NCBI RefSeq assembly: GCF_037975245.1
Contig: NC_092577.1
Span: 24,859,398-24,923,397 of the forward strand
DNA: 64,000 nucleotides
Source of the DNA: Apostichopus japonicus
Taxonomy: Eukaryota > Echinodermata > Holothuroidea > Aspidochirotida > Stichopodidae
Direction of reading: 5' to 3'
Position 1 is the stretch's first letter. Each line of letters begins with the position of its first letter. The position numbers and the translations under genes are program-made. Below the pieces are notes generated by a model. The model saw only the letters and a list, made by a program, of their open reading frames with translations. It ran no database searches and had not been told where the DNA came from. This document shows positions 8,951 through 53,643 of the stretch, one piece after another.

Positions 8951-9009
8951 GTTCTGCCTTTGCAGAAGAATAACGTCGGGATACCTTTAGAGCCTACCTC
9001 TTTGTTCAA

Positions 9010-9560
9010 CTCGCTATTGTGTTCTAAACGGCTTAGTAAAAGCTTGACCGCGGCTTGTGAATATTACTGTATAGCGTGGAGGAAAGTTTGGGGACAGTGT
9101 GCACTCAAGTGTGACTCATTATCTGCTTGTAGCTGTGCTCATTATAGCCGCGGAAAAATCAACCGGCCCGGACATGGCGGTTAGATTTGCGTGGCTTCCC
9201 TAACTCTTCTCTGGAAATCATTCAGCATGTTGTGGAGCTTTGTGGAGCTTTATTGTTTTGGTTCTGTTAGCCTTTGGGTCCGTGTCCTTTTCACGTCACG
9301 TTAAACGCTATATTTTTATACATTTGTGGGTTAGTGAGAGATTTCTGTTTGTGGGTTTTCAGTTGGGTTTTTGGTGTTTGTTAAACAGACTGGCATTGTT
9401 TTTGGTTTTGTTGACCTTTGGTCCGTGTCCGTTTCTTTGCACGTAAAAAGCACAGCATGTTGTTTACTGATCCTGTATCTGTAAACCCTACCAGTCTGTC
9501 AGAAGATCCCGAAAAGACTAAACCACATTTCATTTTCATTTCGTGTAATACTAGTGTCAC
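9010..9560. other. Spacer with an imperfect direct repeat
   Basis: The phrases TTTGGTCCGTGTCCGTTTC and a close variant occur near 9270 and 9415, each preceded by TTGTTTTGGTT and followed by CACGT. This gives a ~145-bp diverged direct repeat. AGCATGTTGT is also repeated at its edges. No coding signal is convincing. Confidence 0.45.
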
Positions 9561-14904: not shown

Positions 14905-15482
14905 TATGGCGCGAGAAAGCGGAATATATTACGTACAAATATATATATGCTGTACTTGCGAAATACATACATTGTTAACTTCAAAAATACATTTTAGACA
15001 TATTAATATATATGTATACACATATATATTCCCTGAAAATTATATTTATTCCCTTAAAGTATATATTTATATATTTTCCAGGTATACAGATATATTTTCT
15101 TAACCACGAATATATATTTTCTGCAAAACAATGTATTCTATCACTGTAAATATTCTGTACAAAATATATATTCTCTATCACAAAAATATATATATTCTCT
15201 AAGAGAAAAATATATATTTCTTACAATAAATATATATCTTGTTAAAAAAATATATATATATTCTCTGACAGAAAAATATTTTTCTCTAACAAAATATATA
15301 TTCTATGACAGAAAATATATTCTGTACAAAAAATTATATTCTGTGCAAAAATATATTTGTATCATGTGTAAGGAAAAATATATATATTCTCTAACAACAA
15401 AGTTCTATTCTGTACGAAAAATATATATATGCAATACCAAGTACGGAGCTCTGTAAGTGCCAACTAAGATGTTTTGTTGTTC
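14905..15482 (+). repeat. Left terminal inverted repeat
   Basis: The outer ~65 bp (TATGGCGCGAG through CTTGCGAAATACATACAT) match the reverse complement of 38053-37989 with about one difference. The middle is extremely AT-rich and carries many variants of TATATTCTSTRACARAAA (for example near 15169, 15256, 15318, 15337, 15383 and 15405). The inner edge AGTACGGAGCTCTGTAAGTGC (~15439-15459) also matches the right end. The repeated boxes look like a sub-terminal array for transposase binding. The HECT gene start codon lies 83 bp beyond the inner edge, so the promoter may lie within this repeat. Confidence 0.9.
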
Positions 15483-15564
15483 GGACTAGTTCGTGCCGCG
15501 GAAGTCCAGTGTCCAGCGCACACTACTGGACCAACAGTATAGTACTCAGTAGACAGTAGACATC

Positions 15565-15938
15565 ATGTCCGATCACTCAGAATTCAGAGACATGAGGCAG
15601 CAGTTCGAACGGCTCTCAAGTCTAATAGAGCAGGTGGTGGCAAACTCGTCGGTGAACCAATTGACACAGAACCCACCACCAGCATCCACATCCCATCGTT
15701 TAACTTCAAGTGAAGGGCAGCAAGTCCGGCCCGTACCTAGGACTAACGTTAGTAATACCATTCTAACTAGGCCAAACGTCAGTGCTCGGCCAAGGCACGG
15801 CACCAGTACACAACAGGAGTTGACAGAGCTCTTTCGACCTTCAAGGAGATCAGGGTCAAGACAGACGCCCCAAGACAGAACCGGGGTAGCATTGAGGCGG
15901 GTCAGGGTCACGGAGATTCGAACCTTATCAAAGAAATG
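15565..15938 (+). CDS. Putative first exon of the HECT ligase gene
   Basis: This open frame starts with ATG 83 bp inside the left inverted repeat and ends at a donor-like ATG|GTATGT (15938/15939). The peptide is hydrophilic and low-complexity. Residues 1-25 can form a helix (FRDMRQQFERLSSLIEQV); the rest is rich in Ser, Thr, Pro, Gln and Arg and looks disordered. It precedes conserved exon 2 (16700-16895) in position and strand. However, the phase (2 bases carried) does not join either likely exon-2 acceptor without a stop or shift. So a small exon may be missing, or this exon may belong to another transcript. Confidence 0.5.
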
Positions 15939-16699
15939 GTATGTGGGACTAGGCTTATGCTAATTACATACATGTAGCCTTTACATCAATCTTGAGGAAC
16001 AGCTAGGTCTACTTAACTCAGGTCTATAGCCTAGGCGTACATTGGTCTACTGTAGGCTAGTAGTAGTAGGCCTATTAATACTAAAACAGGATCAATCACA
16101 AATCATGAAATGGGTCGTAGGAACTATATAAATACCCACCAACGAACGTATGACCCAAGTGAGGGATAGAAAAAAAAATATATGGAAACCATATTCACTC
16201 ATTGACCCATAAACAGTCTAACAGTTACACCTTTTATTCCCGGGGTGGGGGGATTGGGTAATGAGTCTGTGGGGGGCACCATCATCCTGTTTGGTGAAGG
16301 GTATTGCTGTAGTGAGTTTGTGAGTTTTGGATGGAGTAATTACAATCAAGTTAAGCTTTGTGTATGGGAGCAAATATTCAGCTAGACAATCATTAAACTG
16401 TTTTTGGTGCGTTGATACTAAAAATGAATTGTATATACTTACATAAGGCACATGTACTGTACCTGACCAGTAAAGCACTAGGCGGTAATACACATAAGAG
16501 GCAAGAACTTTTGGTTAAATCAGTCATTATTTTCTTACAGATTATGAAACCTCATCATGCTAGTACAAGAATTAATTTCACATATACTCAGAAAATTATT
16601 TTAGCACAATGCTGCTGTGTTAGTTCATCAACATGTATGATTGTGCAACTGAGATGATGTTCATGTCCATAATATATCCTACATGCATATTCTTTACAG

Positions 16700-19600
16700 G
16701 CAGAGGAATGTTCGTAAAGGATGTTTACCTGTTTGGTGCAGATGAGACCAAGAGGCCCAGAAACCTAATTTTTATGCATGAAGAAGGGCGTATTGTGACG
16801 GCAGTAGAGTTTTTTCGCTCTATGACGGAAGCGGACATAACATCCCTTATTGAGGACATTTTCTACTCTCATCTCTCAGGACTGGAACAGCCAAGGTATT
16901 CAAAAAAAGGAAAATGTGATGACTCATGGTAAATTAGCAATGACCAGTAAGATCAAACCAATGAGGAAATGTTTCCAAGTACATGCGTACAAAGAGAACA
17001 CTCAGTTTAATCAGTTTAATCAGTTTTTAATGATCACAGAAACACAACTGGTGGTTGTTTTGATCTTGTTCTGTTAACTTGCTCATATATATATTTTGCA
17101 AATAGCCAATATATTTAGAAAGTAAACACAACATATAGGCTATATAATTATATGAAATAGATGATTTTAGTATTTTGCTGGTTAGAACCATTGTTATGGC
17201 AGTGTAATAATACTGTTTGTTAGTTCTTTTATGAAGGAGCTTATAATTAGTCTAACATTAAGTCTCTATAAATCAAAAGTCATTGTGAGCAAAGACAGGT
17301 AATACAGCAGAATCATGAAAAAGGCAACTCACATGTAGGGGTCATATAATAATGTGTAAACGTATTCTACAAGCTGGTCAAAGGTCATTAAAGGTCATCG
17401 GAGGTCAAATATTTAAAATCTGGAAGACAATATTTCAAGAATCATATTTGAAATGAGCAACAGTCTACGTTGAAAATCTCTGTCTCAATCAACCACGATG
17501 ATACAACAGACTTCATAACATGTGGCTTCACCACTATTAGACTAACTGCAAGAATACTATTATATTTGGTCAATGTTTTACGGTTCTAACGGTTCTTATT
17601 GGATCAAAAGATTGTTCTCTAAGAATCAATGATTTGTTGCTTAACTGCTACACAGCAACAGCATTCAATGCCTGCAATCTGGTTTCTTGTGTGTGTTGTG
17701 TACACCTTGTCAACATATTTTTTGGTTGGGTATGCCTGATCCAGGTTGTAATATCTTTTGCAGTAACAATCAATGTGGATGAGTTTTTTGCTTTGCCTAC
17801 ATGCAAATGCAGCACTTGGGATACACTGTTGTTTTTGTCAATAGACACTGATGGAGTAGTGACATAATGTAGGCTGTTCCTTCAATGGTTTAGTTTGATT
17901 GCAATAAAGTGTTACACAAGGTCATAGTTTATGAACTGTGTGATAGATGTCATAGATCTATGTGGCTCATCATACCTTATTCACTACTATCAGTACCTCA
18001 TTTGTCCATCTATACGCTTAGATTTCAGTTTGTTCGAGTGGTTCGTGGGGACATCATCACCCCAAACACACATAATCAACATGGATGGACCGGGGTTGCA
18101 GTTAAACACCCAGCTGGACAGGGAGCAGTATACGTTAGGTCAACCATTCCACTGACTTCAAAGAAAGTAGAGAATCAGACTGATGTGATAAGTGACGTAA
18201 GTTGATGAATTTCCATAGGGATACATGTTCCAATCAGTTTTCAAACACTATCGAATGTTGCTTCATGACCTCTCACTGCTGATAAGTATTAAACAGATGA
18301 ATACATGTTTCCTTGTTCATTAGATATGGTGCCATTACCACATATTTAATTAAATACCAACACTCATTCAATTTGAGAAAAATTTGCTTTAAAGTATTGG
18401 TGCCTGATGATGAAATGTTGCCAGTAACCACATCAAATTCATATTTAACTTCCTAGTAATGAATCTTACATTGAATTGTTGTAAGGTCTTAAAGTTCTGA
18501 TAATGAATTAAACTTGACATTGGAAAACTCATAATAAATGGACAGTCATGTACAATCCATTACAGTTTACAGAAAAAGTCTTCACCACATTTGTTTTTGA
18601 GTTGCAAAGAATGAAAGCAAACAGTACTACAATTTAGGATAGTTTTACACATGGTTAAGGTTTGTTTCAGAGCAATGCAACTGCCTGTGCTCACAATAAC
18701 AGCCATTCTACTTCATCTGCAATTCGTCAGTGTGTAAATTTAAAAAAAAATCTGAAATAGTTATAGCCCTTCATACACACATTATTAACACATTTGTGAA
18801 AGTATACTGTACATAGCAAATACTTTACACAATGAACAATTGAAGATGCAATTGTCAAAACAGCAGCTATTTTAGACATGAAAAGAAGGTACCACTTGTC
18901 CGAATCTCAAATTCTAATGAAACATAAATTATTTGTCTCTTTCCTCTGTATGATTCAATTATTTTTTTGGCTGCACATGACCCTTTCTGATCACGTCTGG
19001 TCAACAATGATAAAAATCTCTTTTACTTTGCTGTTTGTTGTTGTTTTTTCTTACGGCGAAGAACTTCCTGATCCATTCATTAAGTGCACCAGTCGTCAAT
19101 GTGAGTTATTCTTTTACTGTCAAGCATATTTTTTGTAATGTATGGCCTTCAAGTCAATTGCTATACATGCATTTCACCACAGACACAAAGAATGATGTCA
19201 TTACCTTGATTTTATATTAATGTTGTAATGCATTCCATGTTAGTATTTATGGTAATACAACTTTAATTCCTTGCAATGAGAATATATGCAGTTAAGTCCT
19301 GTATGAGTGTGTCTCTGTGATGCTGCTTGTAAACATGATATTTCAAAAATTGCTGATTTACCTTCAAACTTGGCATGTTGGTAGCCTTTGGTGAGTAAAT
19401 AAAGTAAAATTTTTAATGGAGGTTCAAGTTCATCTGAGGTCAAAGTTTAAACCTTGTAAACATATGTTCTCTCAAATTGCAAAATGTCCTACAACTTCTA
19501 ACTTAATATGTAGGTAGTCCTAGGGAGTACAGATCACTTTTGTTTTTCATGTATTGTTTTTCATGGATGTTAAAGGGAATTTGAGGTCAACAGAGGTAAT

Positions 19601-22600
19601 ATTCATAAAACCTTGTGATTAAACATGCTATCTCAATTTGCAATAGTTGCTATAACTTCAAGTTAGTAATTAGCAAGCCCTTGGTAAGAAAATGGGCCAA
19701 AAAAATAATTCATTGAGGTCAAAGGTCATTTTATATCAACAAAGATCAAATGTGAAAAAGCTTGTATACATGACATCTGAAGAAGTCAAAGTTGCTTGAA
19801 GTTCAACTTGAAGTACCAAATTGTCACAGCGGTATGTGAACAAGAAATAAAGGCACAAACAAGTAGTTGAATTTAACAATTTAACAAAGTATATATTGTT
19901 TCTTCACTTGGCTGGATATATGCTACTGAAAACAAATGGTGAAAGTTGCTACACTCTTTTACCATGGATTACAAGGGGATGGGACAGGATGTAATACTCT
20001 GTCAACATGTTTACTTAACTACATAAACAGTGGTTAAGCTACTGAGAAGCTCACCACACATCCTGCTGAAGATTACATAATAATAGGTGCACAAACCGGT
20101 GAAGGGTTTTGGTTGTAGAAAGTTACACTGGAGGCCACAGTGTGGATGATCTCCTGGAACTAAGAAGTTGGAGGTTTCTGGGAGGTGTGATGTAAGAACT
20201 TCCTGTCTGTGCTACTAGGTAAGATATTGTAAATATGTCCCTAGGGTAAGGAGAAGGTGAGATAACAGTAAAATACTCTCTGTTATAATTGCCTGTCCCT
20301 TAAAAAGTTAATATGTTATCTCAAGAAGCAACCGTTGTTACGACTTAAGACTTGGTTTAGTTTGTCGTCAGTAAATAACTTTGAGATTGTCTTTTCAGTC
20401 AAAGGTCATTTCATATCAGGGAGTATCACTCTAAAAGCCTTGTGTAACAGGTCAAGTTTTATGTATCCTTAAATAACTGGGCTCCATTGTGAATATGCAT
20501 ACGGTATGTGCAAAGTTCTGGGTAGTGTCATCCGTCCACCGTTTGCGTGATGGCTTTTCATGTGGTTAAATGGTGTCATGCAGTGCTATAGTACTGCTGA
20601 AAGTCTGTGAAGGAGTTATACAAATCATCCGTTGTGATATGTGTTGGGTCCTACATGGTTGATATTCATTGAGTCATGAGTTTTGTTATTATTAGAAGAA
20701 TGCCCAAAGTTGTTATTCATGTTTGGCTGTTCTGTTACAAGTTGCTCAGTATGAAAGCCTTTAGGTCTGTTTGGGCAGGGTTGCTGAGTTAGGTGGAATC
20801 ATTAGTATTGTCAAGGGTTGTTTAGGTGAAGCCTGGCAATCTGTTTGTGTAGTTAACACAGGAAGGGTGTATTGTAAGTTGTTACTCAGATGTACTGTGA
20901 ATCTAATTTCCAATTTCACAGTCACCTTTGTTCCATTGAATTCTCTTTTGTAGTAACTTGTATTTACCAAAAGTTCTCACTACCAACCACAAGAGCTCTG
21001 TTTACCATCTCTTTTTAGTTACAATTATGATCGTAACCTTTGCACTCATGATGGCAAGTGTGTGTATGTATGTGTGCAAAGAAACCTAATGTTGTGGGCG
21101 GAGGTCAATGGTTGTTGTAGTTCACCAGGGGTCAAATTGTAAAGACCATGTTTTACACAATATTTCACCAAGGATGGATGTCACATTTAGTACAAGAAGC
21201 CTGTGGTTGTGGTGAATGGTCATTTCAGGAAAGCCTGTGTCATTTTTAATTTATTGTTTGTCAAATCACAAGTGTTGCTTTTCACTGTACTACTAAGATG
21301 AAGTATGTTGTACACCCTCACTATACATTACATCGGATTCAAGAAGAAAACTGCTCATGTTACACCATCGAAAGCACAATGCATTTTTGCATGCTAGTTT
21401 ATTAAGATCTTTTATTAAGAATTGAATCAGGCTCCAATGCCAGTATCTCTGGTGTCTGTGGATTCCTGTGCCCCACATTTTGGCGTAATTGGATTGATGG
21501 AATGTTACATTTGTATCCGTAATATCTGAACCCTGAATCAATCAATTCAAGTCATTCGCACATCTGTTCAATCTTATTGATGCTATAGGTACTTCCTATT
21601 ACACATTCTTCAATTCATAATTTCCTTTCATTGTTTTAGAATTCTCATCATCCGCTTGCAGCAGATAAACCCTCAACCTCAAACACTGTTTTGCAGATCG
21701 CTAGCAGGTACTTGTTTTGGTTTCCATAACAATCATAACCTTTGCATTCATGATGGAGTGTGTGCGAGCGTGTGTATTTGTGTGCGTTTGTGACGCCCAA
21801 CTTCAGGATATCTGAATCCTGTGGTTGAGGTCAATGGTCATTTCAGGACAGCCTGTGTCAATGTGAATTAATTGTTTGTCAAATCACAGGTGCTGCATAT
21901 CACTGTATTACTAAGATCAAGTATGTTGTACACTGTCACTATACATCACTTCGGGTTCAAGAAGAAAGCTGATCGATCGTTATACTATCGAAACCACAAG
22001 GCATTTTTGCATTCTAGTTTCTTTATTGTTTGTTTGTTGTTTGTTTGTTTTTACATTTTTAATAATTAAGTGAACATGGTTATTACATTTGTCCCATCTA
22101 TAGATAAAGAGAGGTGGAAATAAGAAAATGTAAGCCTTCTTGACATTCATCTATTAACATGTAAGCTGTATCCTTTATTTTCAAAGGACTTTGATGGATA
22201 TATCAAACTCAGGAACAGAGGGAGACATTTTTGATGAAGAAGATGAAATTCCTCTTGCAAATGAAGACATTGGCAGGTCAGTGACAATAGTTCTGTTACT
22301 CATTGTTACATGTCTATGAAATATTTGAGGCATATGTACATGTGTGCGTGTGCATTCTCTTGTGATGTCTATGTTTTATTTGCAAATATATCATCCAGAG
22401 AGCCAGAAGGCACTATGATTATGTTATGTTCTTGTTCTTACAATATTTGAGTGTTGTTCAACACTTAGTTTTTTATCAATCCATCAGTGACCTACCTTTA
22501 CAAATTGTCCTTGATGAACACATTCAGAGAGTGATTAGAGAGGATGTACAGAATATAATCATTCGGAGGAGACATGCCTGGAATGACATTAACAAATGGC

Positions 22601-25600
22601 TGCAGAGGAAGAGCTTTTACATTCAAAACAAATGGAAGGTATGGAAATGTTCTCACTAATGATTCCTTGCTGAAGGCAGAAGGAATCTATGATGGTTATG
22701 TAGCTTGTCAGTATCTGTGTGTGGCACTTTCGCTTGTAAAGACAATATCCTCAACAGTTAAAGTTGCCGGAAGTTTAAACTTAGTTTTCTAGGTAGCTTT
22801 TCATGTGCAGACAATCTGAGTTGTGTTAATGGATGTGACAGGTTATTTGAGGTTGAAATCTGAGAACCTTCTTATTAACATGTACAGAGTAAAATTGTTC
22901 CAAAATTTAAAACTTGGAAGATGATCACTATATTTTTCATGGATGTGAAAGGTCTGTTTACCTAACAGCCTGAAACTGTCTTCACTCAAGAAATGAAGTT
23001 GTTTTGTACTTGAACAATCTGTACATAGGCACACATAAATCAATCAGCAATACTCTTGCACTCTCACATTTCTAATTGGCATCACAAATCTTGGAAGATC
23101 TTGTGTCTGTTCACATACACTAATTTAACACTGACTATGAAGACAGGATATTGAAAATGGGCTTATCAATGTTCTTCATTTATGGTTTCTATCAACAGGT
23201 ATGTGTGTATGTGTGGGTATATGTGATGCTCCAGGTTGTAGACACGCTATGTCATTGGGGGTCAGCAGAAGTAACAATGTGAGAATCTCATCACAAAAAG
23301 AACTATATATGCAACCAGATAATCAACGGAGATCATATTTGCATGGTAGATCATGTAGTGTTGTAACTTTAAAATATACCGGTGCTGTGGCTGAGTAGAT
23401 AAAGGCAGTTGCCTTTATATATCTAAAAAAAAATGGTGATTACCCAAACATTAATTACTACTGTAATTTTTGCCAGTAAAGTAGTAAGGAAAGTAAGGAA
23501 TAATAATTATTTGATTCGTTGTATGGCAAAGTAAATCACATTCAGGGTCTTTACTGTGGTCTTTTTTCTTTCTTTTTAATCATAAAACCTAAGTACTTCA
23601 ATATCTCTTATATCACAGCTAAAATTTCTTGGTGAAGATGGTGAGGACGGAGGTGGGTTAACACGGGAGCTATGCCAGTTGATAATCCATGGCATCCAAG
23701 AATCTGGGTTGTTCATTGGAGAAGCTGGTCACATGGTGCCAATAAACAGCATGCAGCACTTAGTTGACCGTGCATATTACTCAGCTGGTCAACTGGTAGC
23801 GTCAGTCATTTGCCAGGGAGGGCCTTCTTTTAACCTACTATCAGAGTATCTTATCGAGGATATTGTTCATGGAAAAACACCTCCAGTCTCTGAGATCCCA
23901 CTTGCTGCTCTGGAACTAGTGGTAAAAGCAACAATTTTCCATTCTAAATTGTAAGCTCTATCTCTTGAACTCCTGTAATAATGCCAGTATTGATAGTAAA
24001 CTGATTTTAGAGAGCTTGAAATATCAACAATTTTGATTAGCTTCTTGCAAATCAAAGGTGATGTTGACAAAAAAGACATATTTGGTTTGCATTTGGATGC
24101 CTGTTGGAAGATTTTCCTCAGTGTATAGTAGAACTTAGTGTAATAAAAGATGGTAAGCACGTGCTTCATTTTTGTATTACAGCACCATTTGCACAATTAA
24201 AACAATCAAAACAGAATATATGAAGATAGATAACTACAGCAGTTCTCGTATTTGCATGTGTGTGCAAGAACCCTATGTGTTTTTTTAGGTCAAAGCTCAT
24301 TTGGGATCAGAAGAAGTCAAAATGTGAAATCTGGAAGACCCTATTGCATGGTATAAGAGTGTAAATGTGTGTGAGATGTTGTAAACAATTTAGCATGTCA
24401 AATGTCGTTTATGGTTAGCAGAGGTCAAATCTGGAAAAACTTGTTAACACAGGCAACTGCGACAGATATTTACCTTGTAAGTTTCAATAATTTGTGTAGG
24501 TACATATTGGCAGAAGTCAAAGCTTATTGGCATTCGCAAAGGTCAAAACGTAATATCAGAAAAGCCTATATTTCCAAAACCATAACATCAACAGAGATCA
24601 TATTTGCATATGATATCAAGTAATCATTGACACTTTGCTTTCCTCTTTGTAGACACCAATTGGCAACACAGTCATTGAAGATCCCAGGGCCATGCTTAAA
24701 GTGAAGTTAATGGAGGTAACTGACACACACAGTATACATATCTCACTTCATAGCATAGAAAGTACATTACTATACTGGTACATAGTTCTGAGATATCACA
24801 ATTATTTTCTCATTAAATGTTCCCATCTGTCATAGTAACCAAGGCACTTATTGAAACATATATCATAACATTACTAGTAAGCTTGCCACATTGATACTCT
24901 GTCTGACTGTCTACTGTACATGATAGTTGACTTTTTCAGAGTCCAAGCAAAGTCCAAGCCGTACAATTTGTTAGTAGCACAGTATCAGTGTGATAAACAG
25001 AACACTTGTCACACATCTATGTGAACTACATCATTTGCTATAAACTTCATGTTTATTGCTGCATGATTTCATTCTTATCCCATCCCCACCCCAGCCAAAA
25101 AGGCTATTGTCACTTAAGAAGATGTAAAGTATAATAAAGAGATAAGTAGCATATTTGCAACAAGGTAAAGTTGTTATAAACAGAAGTGTTGAGGGGATGT
25201 TGCATTGAAGACCATCACACTCAGCATGACTTGACAAAATGATGATGGTTGCTTAATTATGTATTTTCTATGGGGGCAATAGCATATTTTGGTGACGAAA
25301 GTTTATCATAGGGCTTTCCTGTACAAGTTCCCTGTAAATGTAATCAATGAGAAGTAGCAGGGACTTTGGGATTTGCCATATAAGCAAAAGCTAATTGCAG
25401 TTGTTAAGATGTGTCTGCATGGGTCAGTATGACACCTGCTCCTGCTCGTAATTACAGTAACTATATCTGAAGAAGGGAATCTGGATAAATGTCATATTTG
25501 GTGTGGTTGTAGGCCTGCATTTTAGAGAACAAGAATTCTATTGTTTGTAGTGGAAGTCAAAGGTCTTTTAAGGTCAGCAGAGGTCAAATATCATTTGGGG

Positions 25601-26459
25601 TGAAATTAGGCAAATTAATGATAGCCTAAGACTAAAGGAAAGCCACAATGAAAATAAATAACGTTATGAAATGAAGAAAACATTTAAATACATACAAAAA
25701 CTCATAGAAAAAGAAGTGGACTGGGAAAGCAGAGCTTTAATGACCAATCCCCCTTTAAAAAGAAAAATATAAAGAAAGAAAAACAAAACAAGTTGTTTCT
25801 ACTTTCTACGCCCAATAATAGGCTTTAATCCAAAGACAATGAATCAAAACGTTATTGGCTTCTCATTTATATCTCAATTGAAAATTATTCAGATGTTATG
25901 AAACAAATTATGTGTGGTCCAGTACCAGAGGTAGATGCGGATCAGGTCTACAACCTATTTACAGTAGACTTTTCTCCAGAGGGAAGCAACGACAGAGAGG
26001 GGGAGGAAGCATCAAACTTCTCTTTCTTGATGTGGCTTCAGGAGATCAGTGAAGGAAGTGAGTGGTCCATTTTATACAATGCATGAAAGTGTCAATGTGA
26101 ATTCATGACATGTGCAAAACTTTGAAATCATTGTTTCAAGGATTTCATTTCTTTACTTGAACAAGGTAAATGATGTAATTGATGCATATTTAACTGTCTG
26201 TATTAATTTTGTTTATTTTTCTTTTCTGCCAGAGCACAACACAAGTTTGCCTGATTTCCTCCAATGGTTGTCTGGTGCAAGACGTTTACCACCAGGGGGG
26301 TTTTCCGTCGCACCAAGAATAAACTTCTGTGCATCGGATAGGCTACCTGTGGTTTCCACATGTGCCTTGATGTTGACATTGCCCCGTCACCTCAACCAGG
26401 AGGACTTTAGAGACATGATGTCTTTGGCAATGACAGCTGTTGACTTTGCTGTACTTTGA
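16700..26459 (+). CDS. HECT-domain E3 ubiquitin ligase, transposon-borne, multi-exon
   Basis: Exons supported by splice sites and phase: 16700 or 16704-16895, 18022-18196, 21640-21707, 22187-22276, 22488-22638, 23619-23921, 24653-24715, 25893-26057, 26233-26459. Junctions 2-3, 3-4, 4-5, 5-6, 6-7, 7-8 and 9-10 keep phase; the join 24715 to 25893 does not, so one exon is probably unseen there. N-terminal exons encode a conserved VKDVYLFG...FQFVRVVRGDI region and an acidic linker. The HECT N-lobe starts near 22490 (QIVLDEHIQRVIREDV), continues through GEDGEDGGGLTREL and ends near 24715. The C-lobe in the last exon has LPVVSTCALMLTLP, placing the catalytic cysteine codon at 26361-26363. HECT enzymes take ubiquitin from E2 onto this cysteine and pass it to substrate lysines. 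Closest resemblance is to the many G2E3-like HECT proteins of fish. The stop is TGA at 26457; substrates are unknown. Confidence 0.8.
21010..22025 (+). repeat. Duplicated intronic block flanking HECT exon 21640-21707
   Basis: Block A (~21010-21410) and block B (~21715-22025) share long stretches. Both have an ATAACCTTTGCA(C/T)TCATGATG start, a TGTGTG tract, GGTCATTTCAGGA.AGCCTGTGTCA, TTGTTTGTCAAATCACA, then AAGTATGTTGTACAC and CATTTTTGCAT.CTAGTTT. They are clearly homologous but diverged. The short coding exon lies between them. Confidence 0.75.
23378..23425 (+). repeat. tRNA-like SINE head fragment (A box)
   Basis: GGTGCTGTGGCTGAGTAGAT followed by AAAGGCAGTTGCC looks like a tRNA 5' half with an A-box, as in the head of tRNA-derived SINEs. 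It then runs into an A-rich tract. No matching B box or complete cloverleaf follows, so it is a fragment rather than a tRNA gene. Confidence 0.4.
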
Positions 26460-28420
26460 GTTATATCTCATGTTGATGTCTTTTCACTTATTAAGAGAAA
26501 ATTTGTACACATAGTTTACACTGTTCTTATCAATCATTCGCGTGCTACACTTGCCCATTGAATGTATGTTTCTATTTCTGTCTGTCTGTGTGTTAGTATG
26601 TGTGTTAGTAGGTGTGTATGCGTGGATGGGTGAGTGGATGTATGCGTGTATGTATGTATACACTGATGCATACAACATAAATGTGCAGAAAAGGCCACAC
26701 CTTGAAAGATGGAAACCTAATATCAAAGTTTTAAGTTATAGTTCGTCACTTTGCACACATTACCAGTGATATATGGGTCAATGGTAACTTAAATGTTGTC
26801 TCAAGTCTGATATTACATTGAAGTATGATGTGATGTTGACTTAATGTATGTTTTTGCCCCGTGCTTCTTTTCCATGCATATTTCAACATATGCCGATGCC
26901 ATTATTTATTTGGCCTTCGCAGTTGTGACTTTCAACTTTTAATATAGGCAACACACAAAACAAAGCCACCGTTGTGTCAGTTGATGCTCTTGATAGAATT
27001 ATCCGATATTAATATTCGAGTTAGTTTTGTGAAACTGCAGAAGATGCTTCTCCTGCAGTTTGTAATGGGTCATGATGAATATCGATAATAGTGTTACTTG
27101 AACAGTAGTCTATATAAGGGTTCATGAATCTGGGATCGCCTTCTGATTCGTTGTTTGAAAATACTGAGCTTTTAACTAAGCATTAAAAGTATTTGGGGGT
27201 TGTTATTGTATTTGGATATCACAGGTTATCTGGAGTGAGCTTATTTAACTACAGAACTTGTGACATGTGGCTTCCCCACACTTATTGCAAAATCTTGTTG
27301 CATTTGGTAGATAGTTCACATTATGTTAGTGGGCAACAGTTATTGCTGTATATGGCCACTGTATTTCTTACTGTCCAGTTTGCCAATTATTTGATTTGCT
27401 GCATGGCAAGTAACCACATTCAGGGTTTTCATTTTTTCATTATACACTTCCAACACAGAATCTAACACCATAAAACATGTTTTATTATCAAATATTTTGC
27501 ATGCTAGATTCTTTCTTACCATTTTGTCAGTATTTCATAATGTATACTTGCCAATACTTACCACTGTATTCAATATCAAAAAGAGTGCTGTTGTGCACAG
27601 TGGCACAATAAATCTTTGTCTTCTTACTTGGCAGTGAAAAGACACATACTTTGTTTCTTACAAATAAAGAACACAAGAAGCACCTTGACGATAACTTGCC
27701 AGTACAGAAATTATTTATTTCCTGTCAGTTGATTACATGTATTCTTTTCTTTTAATATTTGATGACCTATATTGCACATAAGAAAGTTTGTAACCATGGA
27801 GATGTCGAAATATCCCATTAAAGAACATTCCATTTTGTTTAAATCATTTTATAGTTATTTTCTTACTTTCTTATTTCCTTTATACTTACTTTCAGTTTTC
27901 ATTAACAATGTGATACTGGGGGTGGGTGGGGGCATATGTTGACCTGCCAATAAATTGTACAACGAAGAACACATTTTTGTTTTCAATTATTTAATAAATG
28001 TTGAAGCAGTGTCAAATAAGGCACATACATACCCCAAAATGAGTATTAATGTATAAAGTCTCCACCTTTTGGGGTTGAGATTAACATTTAAATCAATATG
28101 AGGTTACCAATAGAAAACTAGTACAAAAATAAAATAAAATAAAAACTTTAACATCGTTAACAGAATATTACAAAGTTTATATTGTCCACTAACCAGTATG
28201 CAGGTGCACATGGGGTCATATGTAGTAATGATGGTTGGCTTCATATGGCAAACATCCAGCATGCTGGTATGAGTTCAATTTAAAGGTATGAGTTCAATTT
28301 AAACATGTGAGTATAATGAAATTTGTTGAATTAAAATATAAAAAAAGGCTAGCCTAACAAGCTGCATTGAAGGTTAATTTAATTTTGAGCGTGTCTTTGG
28401 ACAAATTCACAACACTGACG
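26460..28420. other. Spacer between convergent HECT and transposase genes
   Basis: About 2 kb between the two stop codons, with no further gene. AATAAA signals on the plus strand near 27608 and 27663 could polyadenylate HECT transcripts. TTTGCCAATTATTTGATTTG with CATGGCAAGTAACCACATTCAGGG (27378-27425) repeats a segment at 23500-23550, showing intra-element duplication. Confidence 0.45.
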
Positions 28421-28693
28421 TTAAATGTGTACACCATTCTCACCATCATCCTCCAATACATCCAAATCCTCAACAAATTGAATTGCCTCATCATCTAGAT
28501 CAACCAGACACTCAGGGACATCAACATTGTTATTGGTTTGTAGTTGTGGAATAGGACCATCATCATCAATGCCGTATGCTGTGAAGTTGTGTGGAAAGGC
28601 ATTTCTTGAAAGAAAACCTTGTGTATATAGCTGAAGAGGTGTCAGACCTTCCGTCCTAAGGATATGGTTGTTCCACTGAGAGACAAAGAGCTG

Positions 28694-28708
28694 CAGAGAT
28701 CTATTAAT
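28694..28708. repeat. 15-bp LINE target duplication, left
   Basis: CAGAGATCTATTAAT occurs here and again at 33603-33617, exactly bounding the Tx1-like insertion. On the minus strand it encodes part of the transposase sequence Ile-Asn-Arg-Ser-Leu. That sequence is therefore read on both sides of the insertion. Confidence 0.92.
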
Positions 28709-28871
28709 GCTTTTTACGTGACCCGCCATGCGGGATACAAAACGTCACGGCCAAACGGCACTACCGAACCATCCCATTCTGACAAACGAAACTAAGGTCT
28801 AGCGAGCCAAAAAAACATACGCCCGCCGACCTGCAGAGACAAAACGCCCAACCCCCTCCCCACTCAAACAT

Positions 28872-31800
28872 TCAAAAACGTACACAAGGACGACCCGCAC
28901 GCAGCGAAACGAAAAACCCCTCCCCAGCACACCAGCGTCCAAAAAAGGCAGCCCCAGATAAACGGCGAAAATCGCCTTCAATCTGAAGGCGAATGTCAGA
29001 CTTCACCGCCTCCAGGACTGCCTGCCAACTGGCAAATTTCCCCCTAAAAACCAAATTACATCTATTCCGCCAAACATGTTTTTTTACAATAGAGCAAACA
29101 AAAATGATGCGGTGCAACACAGCTACCGAACAAACTGGAGGGTCTACCCCATATAAAATAAAGCCCTGCCCTACCGACCATGAACGGTCTCCCGTAACAC
29201 GGTCGGCCCAGGTCTGGAACCACTCCCATAAGTTGACTACAAAGTAACAATGCCAAAAAACATGAGCAGTACTCTCTAAGCTGTCACAGCCGGTCCTAGG
29301 GCACAGTCCATCACCCAATCGCCAATGATATCTTTTTAGGTTGGTCACCAAGGCACCGTGTGCAACTCTCCATGCAAGATCACGGAGCCTGCAACCATTC
29401 AGCCTTCAATGCACCGAACGCCATACTTCTGCAGAATGACGTCCCTGGACAAAAGTTGCATTCAAGGCCTTATCCCTCAACGAACTGTGAACGAGGGCCG
29501 GCTGTGACAGGTCAACAGGGGGCAACTCAATCAGCGCGGAGCAGATGACACGCACCGCCCTGTTTGGAGTACTACTATGCGGTTCTCTGTTGCTAAACAG
29601 CGCCGGGACCCATCGACGCAGGTGCAAACCGCCCCAAAAACGTACAAAATATGAACAAGGCAACCCTGGGTCAGTTACCGCTACAAACAACTGCTTAAAT
29701 AACAAAAAGGTCAATTTACTTCCCAGATGAACCACCCCTAGTCCCCCCTTCTCCAGTTTTTGGTACAATACCGCCCTCTTGACAAGCTCTGTACCACCGG
29801 ACCATATGAATGAAAAAATCGCCCTCTCCAACCGTACCAGGACGCGACGCGGAATAGGATACACCGCGCCAGGGTACCACAAGATGGGCGAAACGAAACG
29901 ATTAATAACAGTGACTTTCCCCAAGATCGAAAGCCAGCGGGTGCCAAAGGTTTCGAGTCTGCTCTGAAATACCTCAGCCCTCTCGTTCCAGGTGACATCA
30001 CAAGGTGCATCGTAGCCGAACCATATACCATTAATTTTGATATTCTGATCCGACCACGACGCACCGAATGGTAAGTTTCTGTATCTCCAGCTACCAAGAC
30101 GAAGGCCCTTTGTCTTTTCTGGATTCAACTTCGCCCCGGTAGCTCTCTCAAAAATAGATAGATCCTGCGAGAGTGCGCGAAAGGAGCCGAGACTCGAAAC
30201 AATACATGTCACGTCATCTGCATATTGAGCGCATTTCACTTTGGCACCCCCTGGCACAACGAATGGAACAAGTTTGGAGTCCCTTTCCAAAAGACGAGAG
30301 AGGGACTCGCTAAACAAAACATAAAGTAATGGAGACAGAGGGCACCCCTGGCGCACCCCCCTCTCTACGTTAAAAACCTCCGAACAAAACCCATTTACGA
30401 TAACAGAACTGAAACTTTGTTCATACAAAACAGAAATCCATTTACGAAAATTTGGGTGCAACTGAAACGTCTCCAATACATTCATTAAAAAACCGCGATC
30501 CACCATGTCAAAGGCCTTCTGCTGGTCCAGAGACACCAATGCACATGGCAGATCACGCTCAATAACAAAGTCGGTCAAGTCGCGCATCAACCACAAGTTC
30601 TGCTGGATGCAATGACCCTTCACTGCACAAGTCTGGAGATCACCAACAAGATGCGGCATAGCCAGTGCAAGGCGGTTGCACAAGGCCTTAGCCAGCAACT
30701 TGTAGTCCACATTTAACAAGGTGATCGGACGCTTGGTATGGGGATCCAAGGGGTCCCCAGACTTTGGCAGCAAAGTAATCATGCCCAGACGTTGACTTTC
30801 GTTTAACAGTCCGTTTTGGAAGGCGTCTTCGAAGACGGCTCTGATGTCGGGTCCTATTATTGCCCAGAAGGTTCGGTAGAACTCCCTCGGAAGCCCGTCC
30901 GAACCCGGGGACTTGCCATTCATCATCTTCGAAAGCGCCTTCCAAAGCTCAACAGTGGTTATTTCGCCCCCCAAAATATCATTGACATCGTGGGGAACGG
31001 TTTTTGAGATTCCCCTCAATAAATCGGCCTGTGCCGACAAGTCGACATTGCCACGCGTAAATAAACTCGAATAGTACTCTTTATATACGCGGACAATGCC
31101 GTGAGGGTCACTAACCACGGTCCCATCAGTAGCGCGTACAGACGGGACGCGTCTGGCACCTGCCGATGAGCTAACGGACTGGTAAAACCTCAGTGAAGGG
31201 CGCTCCTCGGCTTCCACCGCTTCGACACGGGCCCTGACGCGGGCACCGTGGTACTTTTCATCGAGATAAGTCTGCAAAGCGATGACAGCCAAAGGGTCGC
31301 CAAACTTCACCTCCGCGCACAGCTTCGAGAATTTTTCTCTTCGACGCCGTGCGCGGGTCACGCAATACTGAATTGCGTAGCGTTTGATGCGCAACTTGAC
31401 CTCATCCCACCATTGGGATGTAGAAGCAAAGGCCGGCTTCAATGTTTGCCATCCTTTGTACCTGGTCTCGAAACCCTGGCGGAACTCTGCCTCGCCAAGA
31501 ATCCGACAGTTAAGCTTCCATAGGCCCCGCCCGATGGGGAAAATGGAAGGCAAAACAAAACGTGCTACTACAGTGTCATGGTCAGAGAGCGGACAGCTGA
31601 GCGTCTCGCAACCCGAAAATGTAAAACTTACGGGCGCATACACTCGATCTATCCTGGAGGCATCTTCTCCGTTAGGCCTCACCCACGTATACACCGTACT
31701 ACACGGGTGCATATGCCTCCAGACATCGGCTAAAAGGTGTGCCGAAGTGAATCTGTCCAATTCTGTGATCCCAGCGTCGGAACTTGCAGACACAGAAGTT

Positions 31801-32264
31801 CCGAGTCTGTCAAGACCCGAGTCTGGGACACAGTTAAAGTCTCCGACCATGACACACGGCGCACTACCAGGAACAAAGGAAGGCAGCGTGTTAAAAAAAT
31901 CTCGTCTAGCAGAAGGCCGATTGGGAGCATACACATTGCAAATGGCGATGTTACCCTGTGGATACTTGAATAGAATGCAAACCAATCGGCCCTCGTGATC
32001 CGTCTCCACCCTAGTGGCACAACCCGCCTGACGAGCTGACAGAAGGATGACAGTGCCACAGGATGAAGACGAACCAAACGAAGCATGCAGCTCACCACCC
32101 CACTCATAAGCCCATAGAGGGACATCTTCTTCCAAAATATGTGTTTCTTGCAGGCAAACGCAGTCGACCTCCATTGATTTACAATATTGGAAAATGCGAC
32201 TGCGCTTGCGATGATCCCTCATGCCATTCACGTTCAAAGTGGCAACTGAGAATGTATGGGCCAT
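28872..32264 (-). pseudogene. LINE ORF2: APE endonuclease + reverse transcriptase, one nonsense codon
   Basis: Starting at ATG 32264, the endonuclease motifs appear in order: TLNVNGMR, CLQETH, NVYAPN, MVGDFNCVPD, SRIDRVYAP and LSDHDTV. The RT follows with KSPGSDGLPREFY, RPITLLNVDYKLLAK, SLDQQKAFDMVD, GVRQGCPLSPLLYVL and the catalytic QYADDVT (near 30225). The long frame ends at 29406-29408 with TGA after WRSVH. The truncated copy reads Ser (TCA) at this codon, so TGA is a single-base nonsense change. The C-terminal part continues in the same frame (29351-28872) with a CPRTGC..H.FWHC zinc-like motif. The product would nick target DNA and copy the element RNA. Loss of the C-terminal ~180 residues probably inactivates it. 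Confidence 0.88.
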
Positions 32265-32284
32265 GAGAGGGCAATGGGGCAAAA

Positions 32285-33332
32285 CTACGCCGACGACGAT
32301 TCTGTAAGCTTCAAGCGCGCTCTAGACGACATATCGTCGTCCGAGTCGTCACTTGAGGCCGACCTTTTTAGAGAGGGTTCCCCCATCTCGTCGTACCAGC
32401 TCGTCCCAGTGGCACGTTTTGGCTCGACGATCACCGAGCCCCCGGAGTCGCTGTCAGACAGAGCCTCCGGAGACCCGATGACCACCGAGTCCCCGGAGTC
32501 GCCGTCGGACAGAGTCTCCAGATCTGGCGACACCGGCGGCGGGCTGGGGACGGAACTGGACGAGTTGATAGGGGAAGCTGGTGGAGACTTTCTCGGTGCG
32601 GGCACGGGGTTGGGGTCTGCAACTTCAAGGGAGGGTGAACTAGGTGCATCCGGCCCCCCGTCTTTGCGTGGAGCTTCCTCCGAGGCAGTAGGTGCGCCAG
32701 AACTTGGCGCCTTTGATTGACCCCCACTCTTTGTCATAAAGACATAAGAGGAGGGACAAGCGCGAAAAACATGCCCCTCCTTCCCACAGAGTGAGCACAC
32801 AACTTCGCTTGGGTAAGCAGAGGTATCATGCCCAAGACGAAGGCAGCGCCCACACTTTTTGTTTGGGCAGCCCTTGGCTTCGTGCCCGGTCTCCCCAGGT
32901 ACGGGGCTGACCGGGGTATCGCACGTGAGCTTTATGTCCGGCAATAAAAAGGAAGGAGGGAATGTCCTGCTTGAGGTCGATCCGAACCTGTCGGTGCCCG
33001 TTCAACACCCCAGGGGCCTGTGCGTACGAGCACATTTTGATGCCCTTGACAGCCCCAAACCGACCTAAAACAGTTGCGACAAGTTCCTGACGCACCTCTA
33101 GTCCTACGTGGATGACAGTTACCCATACGGAACGCTCGTACGGAGTAACTGTCAAACCTTCAACCCCACTCAGCAACGCGACACCCTTCTGCCGGGTCAC
33201 GTCACTTGTAAAACGTACATCATAAGTATTACGACCCTGGAGAGCTTGCAACGCATCAACCTCTCCAGGCACAACAACACCCTTACTCTTTAAAAAAACT
33301 AAAAACTTGCACCGGTGGAACCGCTTGTTCAC
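32285..33332 (-). pseudogene. LINE ORF1: nucleic-acid-binding protein with zinc knuckles, frameshifted
   Basis: The N-terminal frame (33332 to ~32890) has an RRM/gag-like fold signature (VTVIHVGLEVRQELV, RFGAVKGIKM, GHRQVRIDL). Reading then shifts to the 32944-32285 frame: GHEAKGCPNKKC, CGRCLRLGHDTSAYP and CSLCGKEGHVFRACP, a series of CCHC-type knuckles (the middle one imperfect), then an acidic, Ser/Pro-rich tail with repeated DSDSGGS-like units. Near 32890 the first two cysteines of knuckle 1 seem to have been lost in the same lesion that shifted the frame. The product would bind the element RNA. It ends just before ORF2. Confidence 0.78.
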
Positions 33333-33602
33333 CGGTGAAGGTTAACTTAACAATTTTGGAATCACGGCGCGATGCCATGATACCGAAGGTGGCTGGGCCA
33401 CAGAGGAGTAACAAAACAAACTAAAGATAGGTTGGATAAAATACAATATACGATGACTATATACGATAACGATATACGATATACGAACTGGCGCACACCC
33501 GCCTGGCGGGAAGTATAGCACAGTACAGTGAAAAAACAGTTATCAGATGTAGAGCGAGAGCGAAAAACACGTCTGCACTCCACGAAAGCCAACTGTCAAC
33601 TT

Positions 33603-33617
33603 CAGAGATCTATTAAT
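33603..33617. repeat. 15-bp LINE target duplication, right
   Basis: Second copy of CAGAGATCTATTAAT, matching 28694-28708 exactly. It marks the 5' boundary of the LINE insertion. Confidence 0.92.
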
Positions 33618-33679
33618 ACGAGGCAGAAACACAGTCTGAAGAGCTAGAATGCGGATAAACATATCAGTAAAGTTTGCAA

Positions 33680-34237
33680 GACTGGTTTCTATTATATTTT
33701 TAATTTAAAGAAGATTAGGACACATATGTCTTCTAGAACTATGAGTACATTGGTTCATTCATTCATTCAGAGCCATTTGGATTATTGCAATAGTTTGCTC
33801 CATGGTATCTGATTCAGAGACTGCAACGTCTGCAGAACAGCGCAGCCAGGCTTGTTGTAGACTGCTATGACTTCAACACACCATCGTTGAGTATCCTCCA
33901 TTCTTTGCACTGGTTGCCTGTTGAATTCAGAATTAAGTTCAAAGTACTGCTCCTGGTATATAAGTGCATTCATGGAATGGCACCCGCCTATTTGTCGGAC
34001 GATCTGTCCTTCCAGGTCAATACTCGTTATACCTTGCGTTCTAGCAATACACTCACTCTCACTGTTCCCAGAACTAAACTGAAAACCCCAAGCTCTGGAA
34101 TGGTGTACCCATATCTGTGCGGAGTTCTCCCACTCTCATTCAGTTTAAGTTGGCTTTCTATTAGGGTTGTACAGCGCTATTGAATACTTCGTAGATTTTA
34201 GCGCTTTATAAGTTCATTTTTTATTATTATTATTATT
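33680..34237 (+). mobile_element. L2/CR1-like LINE 3' fragment
   Basis: The plus strand encodes the RT tail: HLDYCNSLLHG, then a broken stretch, then SILHSLHWLPVEFRIKFKVL and HGMAPAYLSDDL, followed by TLRSSNTLTLTVPRTK. It ends with GCGCTTTATAAGTTCATTTT and an ATT microsatellite (34218-34237), the classic L2/CR1-type 3' terminus. It is 5'-truncated with frame breaks. It sits between MEDWF and FLPRINRSL of the transposase, in opposite orientation. No target duplication is visible, which is usual for this group. Confidence 0.85.
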
Positions 34238-35985
34238 TCGTTATCTCTGTTAAATAAACCAGTCTTCCATTTGAATGAAAAGTGCCCTAAATGACTGAAG
34301 GCATGTTATGTAAACATCCCTCCATAAACGTTCAATTCTTTGGTTGTGAACTGAGCGACCTGTTATAACACTGCCTTGTCCTGTACCTCTTCTTTCAAGC
34401 ATGGCCCTTGCTACCTCAAAATTTTCTGATCCGTAGTCACATCTAATTCTTAAAGGAAGACCATACTCTGCCACTGCTCTCTCAAATAACTGCAGCACTG
34501 TTGCAGCCCTATTGTCTGTGTTACACTGTAGAAACACGACTGTCCTAGAGAACCCATCTTTACAGCCGTGTATCACAAAGCGCCAGGGGTTTATTAATTT
34601 ATGGTTGCCGTCAATGTGCCTGCACAAATAAAAGAGAAAAGAAGTATGAATATAGAAGTATGAATAAGATACTGATGGTCTATACCATTTAATCTAGTAT
34701 GACAATTACATTTTAGCAAAGTTACTTGTCAACTTTCACAAGACTCCATGTTCCTCTGTTTGACTCAGGTATAACCATAATGACATCGATGTAGGCTATA
34801 TGAAAATGTTTAATGCTGAGCCACATTGGATTGGACTAGTCTAGGGCACTTAAATAGAGACTGAAACAGGAGTTGTTTTATCCATACTTCATTAAGAAGA
34901 GACTGTCCTGTGAACTAACGGGTAGCCCAATGCTACGTCTCAACATTAGAATTCCATTAATTTTGAGTACACATGCATAGGAGTTGTGAGGGACTTTTAA
35001 GATTTGACATATTACCAAAGATTTACAGTATTTACCAGACTTCACCCTGGTTACATAATACATACTGTGTGATTTAAGAGTATACCAATTTGCTTTACAA
35101 GATACCTAGAACTGCAGTCTGATAACCTGTATTGGATAAAACAGTTGGCTTTTACATACGTACAAAAAGGTTCACCACCCAACATAAGATAATGGAATAG
35201 AGTCTGGAATTTAGGACTTATTTCAAATACTATATTGTGCAATGACAGTATAACTATACTTTTATTGGAGAAACACATACTTGCCAACCTACAACATTCA
35301 AAAAGATTTGATGACTATATAGCATGAATGTTTTCTATTTGCATCATTCTTTATGTACTTACCAGAGAAAGTTTGGAGATGGAATATTATATGTTCGTCT
35401 AATAATAGAATGTCTCCTTCTCATTGCGACGCCAATAGGATGCACTCTCTGCAGACTTTCCCTAATCCTAAATACTTGGATGTTGTGGTGGTTTTAACCA
35501 ACTGGCATGCCTAATTCATGCCGTATGTTTCGTATGGAACGGGCTGAAACCCGTAGAAGTTGGGCTATCTTTTCCCAACTGAATCCTAAGTTTCATAAAT
35601 ATTCTAATTGCTGCAGAGTTACAAGTAGCTTTGGTCTGCCTGGACCTGGTCTGTTTTCAGTTGGACATACAAATGATGGTGGATTTAGCCTGGCTTGAAA
35701 GTGAAGTTGCAAGTGCTCTAGCCTAGCAAGGATTTGCTGTAAAATTTCCACCATTTCATAGAGAGCATTGCTTAGCTCAGCAAAGTCCCTGGAATGGACT
35801 AACCAGTCCTCGGCTTGCAGCGCTAGCATTTGCAGAGAATCCAAGAACTCGATGCCATGTCGATGATTCTGTTCAATTTCATTCAAGTTGGTTCCATTTC
35901 AATTCACTGCCTGCCCGTAAAAGCGCAGCAGGGAGTTCAGGAAGACATTTACATCTGGTTCGTTTCTTCGTACTGGAGGTGGCAT

Positions 35986-37565
35986 GCACTGAACAGTCCG
36001 TCCCCAGAAGCAGTAGAAAAGGCAACACTAAAAATGCTGTCTTACCAGTGATAAGCCATCTGTGTAAAGTGGGAACAAGAGTGAAATACAGTCAATGACT
36101 TTTCCACTTTACAAACAATTGATGACACCCTCTATACAGAACATAGATGATTTCCTTCTTCAATTTTCTCTTTTCTTTTGAGACACTGATGAGGGAGGAG
36201 TAACACTGTGAGCATGATTTGGCTCTCCATTTTCAGATGTAACAGCGTAGACTGACCTGAAGCACAAATCAGGCTTTATTTTAACCACATCACAATGCAT
36301 ACAGTGTGACAATGTTTATAAGATTGATCCGTAATATGTGCCACGCTTTGTTGTTGTTTTAAACACAGAAGGAAAAAGCACCCATTACTGTACGTCTAGC
36401 ATTGTGGGCTAATAATTGACGCACTTAAGAATTTGATTAGTGATGTCTATCATTGAAAAATCAAACTCACTTAACTGTATGCATTTTTCATAATATAATG
36501 AACTCCAAATATTTTTTATTTGTGCCTATGCAATGTACACTTGAGCAGAATTTGACCACAAAATGTCTGTCCAGTCGAGATCTTACATGTCATACAGTAC
36601 CCTAAATTGACACATTTGTAGTAAAGCGAACTTTGTGTAGACCTAAGTACACATTCGTTGACTTTGGATGCTGTTTGCTATGCTCTGAACATCCTAGCTA
36701 TGACTGGTCAGGTCCCAGAGAGTAATGGTATATTACTGTCGTCATTTTGGTTATTTGAAAATTAGGGAGTAAGATATCCAAATGCAATAAACCGTGCAAA
36801 ACTGGTGGGGAGGGTGATAAAAGCTTTACAAAAAAAAAAACAAATTGATGAGCACCTATCTCAAATGGATTAAAATTCATCAAATATGTAACTCTGCTTC
36901 ACTGTAAAATAGTTAAGGTTCCCTGCTGTACCCTTGCTAGTAATATCTGAAGGAGTGGGTGCGTCAATTATGAAGCCTTGGCTTTACTATACACTATGAT
37001 ACATGAAGGAAAACATATGAAAGTATAATTCTCAATCATGCTGAACTGTATGAAGGCCTATACTAATTCTTAGTCTAGTGTAAGTAGATTTTTTGAATGG
37101 TAGAAAATGTAAGTTTAAATAGTAGGTAGGCTAGGGCCTATGTTGTTTAGCCTTTTTTTTTTTTTTGGGAGTAGCCTGACGTTAATATAATGCTAGCAAC
37201 TGACGTAGGTAATGCAAGCCTAGCCTAATTTCGGTCACATTGTTAACAATGCATTGTAGAAAATCTGCAGTGGCTAGTCATATGCAACGAATCTTGTGAT
37301 AATTGTATCATACTCACGGGCCCGATCTGGACGCCATGGCTATATTGCTGCTGTTACTGTTAAGCCGGCTAGTTACGGTACAGAAGGCTTCGTTGTCGAT
37401 CGTATCGTCGTACAATCAGGGAGTTGTTATGGAATAATCCCTGGTACTATCATGTGCAATGTGATGTCGCAAACCCACTCACTGTGAACATTAAGATTCT
37501 GAGCAGAAATGTGCGTTTTATGAATGGCCAGTGTAATGAAGAAGCTGGTCACTGCTGAAGTTACT
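35986..37565. other. Transposase upstream region inside the right TIR
   Basis: About 1.6 kb between the transposase start and the right inverted repeat. Likely to hold its promoter or an upstream exon, but I see no clear exon. An A-run near 36831 and a T-run near 37150 are the only notable features. Confidence 0.35.
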
Positions 37566-38053
37566 GAACAACTTTAACAAACATCTTAGTCAGCACTTAC
37601 AGAGCTCCGTACTTTGTACAGCATATATATCTTTTCGCACAGAATATGTTTTTCGTACAGAATATATATTTTTCGCACAGAATAGAATTTTGTTGTTGGA
37701 GAATATACATATTTTCCATACACACAATAAAAATATATTTTTGCACAGAATACAATTTTTCCTGCAGAATAAATATGTCTGTCTCAGAATTTATATATTT
37801 TGTTAAAGACAAATATTTTTCTGTCAGAGAATATATATGTTTTTTAACAACATATATATATATATATATTTGAAAGAAAATATATTTTCTCGTAGAGAAT
37901 ATATTTATATAAATGTATTTGTGTTAGAGAATAGTTTTTTTCAGAATATATATAAATATTTCTAAATGTATTTTGGACGTAAACCATGTATGTATTTCGC
38001 AAGTGCAGCATATATATATTTGTACGTAATATATTCCGCTTTCTCGCGCCATA
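37566..38053 (-). repeat. Right terminal inverted repeat
   Basis: Reverse complement of the left repeat: outer ~65 bp nearly identical, the inner AGCACTTACAGAGCTCCGTACT edge at ~37599-37620, and the same AT-rich array of TTTTCGCACAGAATATATA boxes between. It is about 90 bp shorter than the left copy through loss of some array units. Confidence 0.9.
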
Positions 38054-38059
38054 GGCAAG
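38054..38059. repeat. 6-bp target site duplication, right
   Basis: GGCAAG directly follows the right inverted repeat (CTCGCGCCATA) and equals 14899-14904. Confidence 0.85.
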
Positions 38060-48015: not shown

Positions 48016-48117
48016 GTCGTTTCTTTGTACATCTACTTTGGGCTTAGTTGCTGCCTGTTAGTTCTTTTCGATGATGCGCCCTCTAAATGGGATTGATGAA
48101 CCCATCTAGCACACCAT

Positions 48118-53605: not shown

Positions 53606-53643
53606 GAAAAGATATTGCCTATTGTAATGATTTCTAACCTCAG

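Follow-up and report, generated by a model that had tools for sequence, protein, structure and literature searches.

The window analysed here is a stretch of 64,000 nucleotides from the sea cucumber Apostichopus japonicus (RefSeq assembly GCF_037975245.1, contig NC_092577.1, positions 24,859,398 to 24,923,397 of the forward strand). Positions 14905-38053 of this window are a DNA transposon of 23,149 bp, with the hexamer GGCAAG abutting each end, which contains the exons of a HECT E3 ubiquitin ligase gene on the plus strand and a transposase gene on the minus strand, the two genes converging between terminal inverted repeats. An earlier note, made from the sequence letters alone, had described this element, and alignment of the window ends together with Pfam searches bears out its coordinates, mirror-image ends, 6-bp duplication and gene order. 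The features are listed below, numbered from the first letter of the window; copy 2 is a second copy of the same family, located on contig C17.

14899..14904, no strand: target-site duplication GGCAAG, left
14905..15482, plus strand: left terminal inverted repeat arm (48 bp perfect, the remainder AT-rich and imperfect)
15565..15938, plus strand: HECT exon 1 (N-terminal); by exon lengths and phases, out of frame with exon 2 in the window and in frame with it in copy 2
16700..16895, plus strand: HECT exon 2; copy 2 breaks off within it at 16776
18022..18196, plus strand: HECT exon 3, in frame with exon 2
22187..22276, plus strand: probable HECT exon 4, in frame with exon 5, without homology support
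22488..22638, plus strand: HECT exon 5, start of the N-lobe
23619..23921, plus strand: HECT exon 6, N-lobe; 74% identity to Holothuria leucospilota P0001 across 81 residues
25893..26057, plus strand: next-to-last HECT exon found; at least one further exon is expected between 23.9 and 25.9 kb
26233..26459, plus strand: last HECT exon, with the catalytic cysteine (..VVSTCALML..) and the stop
28382..28708, minus strand: C-terminal part of the transposase, with one in-frame stop
28694..33617, minus strand: long interspersed nuclear element (LINE; endonuclease, reverse transcriptase) within the transposase gene, including its 15-bp duplication at both ends; missing in copy 2
33603..33665, minus strand: transposase fragment beyond the LINE
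33652..34233, no strand: second insertion in the transposase gene, about 0.58 kb; missing in copy 2
34253..34618, minus strand: catalytic core exon of the transposase, rva_4 (PF24764); second D to E spacing of 34 residues, first D by eye
35362..35898, minus strand: N-terminal exon of the transposase, with two in-frame stops; compared with copy 2 it has a gap of about 105 bp
37566..38053, minus strand: right terminal inverted repeat arm
38054..38059, no strand: target-site duplication GGCAAG, right

The outermost 48 bp of the terminal repeats are perfect mirror images, the arms are 94% identical across the outermost 90 bp, and their alignment extends over 488-578 bp. Exact reverse-complement 18-mer partners number 116 in the window, against 0-1 in five mononucleotide shuffles. 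The termini are of the form TATGG..CCATA, and once the LINE and the insertion of about 0.58 kb are subtracted the element measures about 17.7 kb. Hallmarks of Polinton/Maverick elements (DNA polymerase B, virus-like genes) were absent from the 14 open reading frames (ORFs) scanned with Pfam, although no search was aimed at them.

The transposase core matches the Pfam domain rva_4 (1.4e-50), presumably the transposase domain of IS3EU and GingerRoot elements; this match, together with 3756 homologues among 6887 candidates, identifies it as an integrase-like DDE transposase of the kind found in IS3EU. Its DD34E label, proposed in the earlier note, is correct, since the second D and the E are 34 residues apart, as they are in all four transposases checked. 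A relative on a public contig (P0002) is open over 231 amino acids and 98% identical over the core. The window gene itself is heavily damaged. A LINE of 4,894 bp, whose 15-bp duplication sits at 28694 and 33603, interrupts it, and because of this insertion, the second one, the in-frame stops, the gap of about 105 bp and what looks like a frame shift close to that second insertion, the window copy cannot make a whole transposase. Judged by its sequence, it is dead as to its transposase.

The HECT exons found in the window are all open, and those at the junctions used (exons 2-3, exons 4-6 and the last two) join in frame with GT/AG. The frame breaks at exon 1, and the full gene may be impaired, though the exons of the HECT domain that we found are open. 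Joined together, the exons match Pfam HECT (7.9e-12, the match falling in the C-lobe), and their best match by sequence among solved structures is HUWE1, over both lobes (1.2e-9). The N-lobe, the C-lobe and the catalytic cysteine of a HECT E3 ligase are all present, and the catalytic TC motif occurs in all four families whose C-lobe was read (those of the window, C1, C16 and C3). In both lobes and the TC the protein resembles known HECT E3 ligases (HUWE1, NEDD4, E6AP, AREL1); it differs from them in being encoded by a transposon, and its relative P0122 is only 12-19% identical to the solved chains listed. The predicted structure of P0122 (mean predicted local distance difference test score, pLDDT, 71) retrieved HECT domains in all 50 matches listed (best E 3.6e-8), with template modelling (TM) scores by query length of 0.30-0.46 and a root-mean-square deviation of about 12 among those matches; the low TM scores would fit a model of moderate quality and a different placement of the lobes. 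The closest named protein is P0001 of Holothuria leucospilota (43% across 64% of the query), and the nearest proteins to the HECT of the C1 family described below include P0125 of Apostichopus japonicus itself. Searches with the window and C1 proteins gave 1 and 6 proteins (7995 candidates sharing most words were scored in the first); two of these are the named sea cucumber proteins, and none is a G2E3. With G2E3-like genes the window gene shares the HECT domain, its best solved-structure match being the HUWE1 just mentioned; a passage of one paper records a G2E3 match among unclassified repeats of Cottus fish (PMC5638112).

Copy 2 (C17:15825643-15833226, 7,584 bp) has the same 18-bp ends as the window element and a duplication of its own, CATACC. 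Starting at the left end, its alignment with the window runs to 16776 and resumes at 27933, with 11.2 kb missing between; copy 2 carries about 0.56 kb extra at window position 16449, and contains neither the LINE nor the second insertion in the transposase gene. What remains of its HECT is exon 1 and the start of exon 2, in frame and open as far as the break. We prefer a loss of 11.2 kb in copy 2 over a gain in the window, since inserted sequence would need to finish an exon already begun; and because the break falls inside a HECT exon, the HECT gene most simply predates both insertions and was probably ancestral to the window element and copy 2. The first 200 bp of the window element gave at least 44 rows in its own genome (the 40 best of 206 candidates being scored). 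Of six end copies followed for 30 kb, copy 2 alone has both ends and carries a transposase; end or arm matches were all that the remaining five showed, and these five are probably short non-autonomous copies or fragments.

These observations bear on whether the window element alone captured the HECT from its host by chance, as a passenger. A search with window exons 5-6 returned 4 rows (all 16 candidates scored), two being the window itself and two at 33-34% identity, so that no other close copy exists in the genome, and plant GingerRoot elements were reportedly found, in the GingerRoot study, to carry gene fragments. Both would suit such a capture. We nevertheless set it aside as very improbable, since copy 2 carries HECT exons at a different site, the same convergent pair recurs in other families, and the HECT shows signs of selection in one pair of elements, as described next.

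A distinct family is represented by an element of 22,667 bp at C1:12260970-12283636, with CGGCCG on both sides, which encloses both a HECT and a transposase. Its termini TATGGCAAGCCGTTTTA, at C1:12260970 (plus) and 12283636 (minus), are again of the TATGG..CCATA type, and between them an open HECT ORF of 362 amino acids lies opposite a transposase with an open core exon. Between this HECT and that at C16:5.80M we counted 6 synonymous changes and 1 non-synonymous change, giving a ratio of non-synonymous to synonymous change (dN/dS) of 0.047 (Fisher p 7e-4) from seven changes in a single pair; the HECT is under constraint in this pair, and the transposase cores of the same two loci have a dN/dS of 0.49, which is not significant. 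At one mismatch or less, the end TATGGCAAGCCGTTTTA has 530 + 542 matches genome-wide; the control, the same pattern reversed, has 0 + 2. By eye, about 27 plus/minus pairs among the matches listed on C1 to C4 are separated by less than 3.2 kb, a spacing suggestive of many short non-autonomous elements.

The window, copy 2 and C1 thus share TATGG..CCATA termini, with 6-bp target-site duplications (GGCAAG, CATACC and CGGCCG). In the passages of two papers that describe them, IS3EU elements, in Repbase since 2013, have ends of the form TA..TA and, as a rule, 6-bp duplications (PMC10045372), and fungal IS3EU elements bearing a TET gene have TAYGG..CCRTA ends (PMC12730594). All three loci fit both forms, and the suggestion in the earlier note that the ends are those of IS3EU agrees with these published descriptions, as far as the passages go.

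Two pairs of near-identical loci invite a different explanation, namely that HECT and transposase are a domesticated pair of host genes spread by segmental duplication and not by transposition. Blocks of 10-15 kb with 98.8-99.7% identity between chromosomes would be expected of such a process, and in one pair (C3:14.23M and C6:9.74M, 98.8-99.0% identical, with HECT and transposase core open) no ends were found within 10 kb each. The other pair, C16:29.79M and C17:6.33M, is 99.7% identical in 17-kb stretches, with identical HECT and transposase core exons and a spacer differing at 10 of 3098 sites; the identity starts at the exact TATGGCAAGCCG end (TATGG), outside which the flanks are unrelated. 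Paired TA ends in these 17-kb stretches gave weak matches only, probably by chance, and a scan of the 10-kb stretches of the same two loci found no ends. The sharp end with unrelated flanks, the exact ends with 6-bp duplications at three loci, and the 1072 genome matches to TATGGCAAGCCGTTTTA against 2 for the control leave little room for segmental duplication, to which we assign only a slight chance. Upstream of the HECT ORF in the C3/C6 pair (L034:8236-8706, L035:8511-8963) there is also a tandem, coding-like TKTTI/L repeat with open frames of 157 versus 151 amino acids.

The association of the two genes was then counted over the assembly (671.6 Mb, 35 contigs, one genome only). A search with P0002, in which all 101 candidates were scored, yielded 83 rows that merge into 64 transposase loci; for Pfam HECT all 122 candidates were scored, and the 96 resulting rows merge into 58 HECT loci. 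A HECT locus lies within 20 kb of 32 of the 64 transposase loci, and all 32 pairs are convergent. Uniform random placement gives a mean of 0.28 pairs (maximum 3 in 2000 runs), and with the HECT loci shifted within the contigs that hold them the mean is 1.6 (maximum 4 in 40 shifts). Paired transposase loci make up 21 of 38 off C17 and 11 of 26 on it. HECT loci without a paired transposase number 26 of 58, and those of them comprising several HECT rows resemble ordinary genes of the host. HECT fragments occur at C17:15.79M (L030) and C20:23.13M (L031), the latter without a paired transposase. The earlier note took the ligase to be a component encoded by the element and no host gene, and looked to whether other copies of the ends ever bracket a HECT; the ends of the C1 family do, copy 2 retains HECT exons, and half of the transposase loci hold the convergent pair, which supports that view.

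C17, with 5.5% of the assembly, holds 26 of the 64 transposase loci (binomial p 1.6e-16), 24 of them in the interval 15.4-25.6 Mb. Such a cluster would fit a refuge region, whether sex-linked, pericentromeric or low in recombination.

Taken together, several lines of sequence evidence make it highly probable that the window element is an IS3EU DNA transposon in degenerate form, whose two genes encode a DD34E transposase and a HECT E3 ubiquitin ligase, and that IS3EU in this genome carries the HECT as a standing gene, inherited with the element and not a chance passenger. A number of points weigh against this. The 32 transposase loci without a HECT within 20 kb mean that many elements lack or have lost the gene, and the 32 pairs include several recent, near-identical copies of one another, so that independent families are fewer. 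Of six loci with both genes that were read in long stretches, both ends and a duplication were found at 2, one end at 2 and none at 2 (the C3 and C6 loci just described); two further loci (C16:5.80M and C17:15.79M) were read only partly. The genome yielded no intact transposase of the window's own family, the match in copy 2 carrying one stop, and the constraint on HECT comes from the one pair with its seven changes. The lack of further close copies of window exons 5-6 also argues that no HECT-bearing family of the window type is amplifying at present.

Known relatives offer instructive parallels. With the IS3EU of Repbase and with GingerRoot the element shares, as far as the published passages go, TA..TA ends, 6-bp duplications and an integrase-like DDE transposase. 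In the fungal elements bearing TET, as the relevant passage describes them, the transposase and an alpha-kinase are oppositely oriented with TET between (PMC12730594); the resemblance is a second gene opposed to the transposase, and the difference is that an alpha-kinase and a TET/JBP dioxygenase stand where the animal element has a HECT. In fungal and animal IS3EU alike, it seems worth noting, the second gene would, from its sequence, encode a protein-modifying enzyme. The TET/JBP transposons of fungi are likewise IS3EU elements with an enzyme believed, by the account in that passage, to oppose silencing by the host, but there by DNA demethylation and in fungi, here by ubiquitin ligation and in an animal. 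Our literature search found no IS3EU paper naming HECT, although Repbase and the GingerRoot paper lay outside it and may mention one, and no paper with HECT, transposase and DNA transposon together.

No relatives were confirmed on viral contigs, either of P0001 (0 of 1 pattern matches) or of the transposase alignment (0 of 41). In prokaryote genomes 3 of 48 transposase pattern matches were confirmed, all on 3.4-4.2-kb contigs (LWTN01000118, 139 and 127) of one metagenome-assembled genome of a Cycloclasticus sponge symbiont. These contigs carry the IS3EU-type transposase only, with no HECT by eye in their ORF lists, and are probably contamination from the sponge host; on one of them the transposase lies beside an apparent retroelement polyprotein.

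As to mechanism, transposase and HECT are encoded by convergent genes between the terminal repeats, insertion duplicates 6 bp, and the ligase would be made from the element and act in trans for it. Taking the TET of fungal IS3EU as a model, we consider the most likely target of the HECT, though still short of an even chance, to be a nuclear host protein involved in silencing the element or in repair directed against it, which the HECT would ubiquitylate. Somewhat less likely, the HECT may regulate the element itself, ubiquitylating the transposase or its DNA complex and so setting its level, limiting transposition, or resolving it by dismantling the complex after cutting. The convergence of the genes within one element would suit this second possibility, as would a HECT seemingly more constrained than the transposase in one pair with few changes, the rest being conjecture; half of the transposase loci have no nearby HECT, which counts against it. 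The window copy needs a transposase from elsewhere, because its own is destroyed and its HECT is frame-broken at exon 1, and it would be mobile only if another copy supplied the enzyme.

If the HECT is indeed a standing gene of IS3EU, this is the first eukaryotic DNA transposon known to us with its own ubiquitin ligase in that role, and a HECT beside a transposase suggests that the element may steer host protein turnover to aid its own spread. It would also offer a possible cause for the multiplication of HECT genes in some animal genomes, and annotated "HECT genes" adjoining integrase genes would become mobile-element genes. More tentatively, animal IS3EU may be two-gene 'ubiquitin-ligase transposons' by design, in which the slot opposite the transposase typically holds a protein-modifying enzyme (a kinase in fungi, HECT in animals) needed to defeat silencing or finish transposition, much of the HECT expansion in marine animals and fish being their trace. 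With ORFs in several copies, the ligase and transposase pair provides a natural system for asking what a transposon gains from protein tagging.

Other apparent mobile elements lie in the window outside the transposon. Pieces of a second, decayed LINE at 7141-9063 encode protein fragments that by eye closely resemble those of the LINE in the transposase gene. Overlapping long ORFs at 53555-55696 on the plus strand resemble, by eye, another DNA transposase, and the minus strand at 42170-48057 carries a long open retrotransposon polyprotein with reverse transcriptase and integrase recognised by eye.

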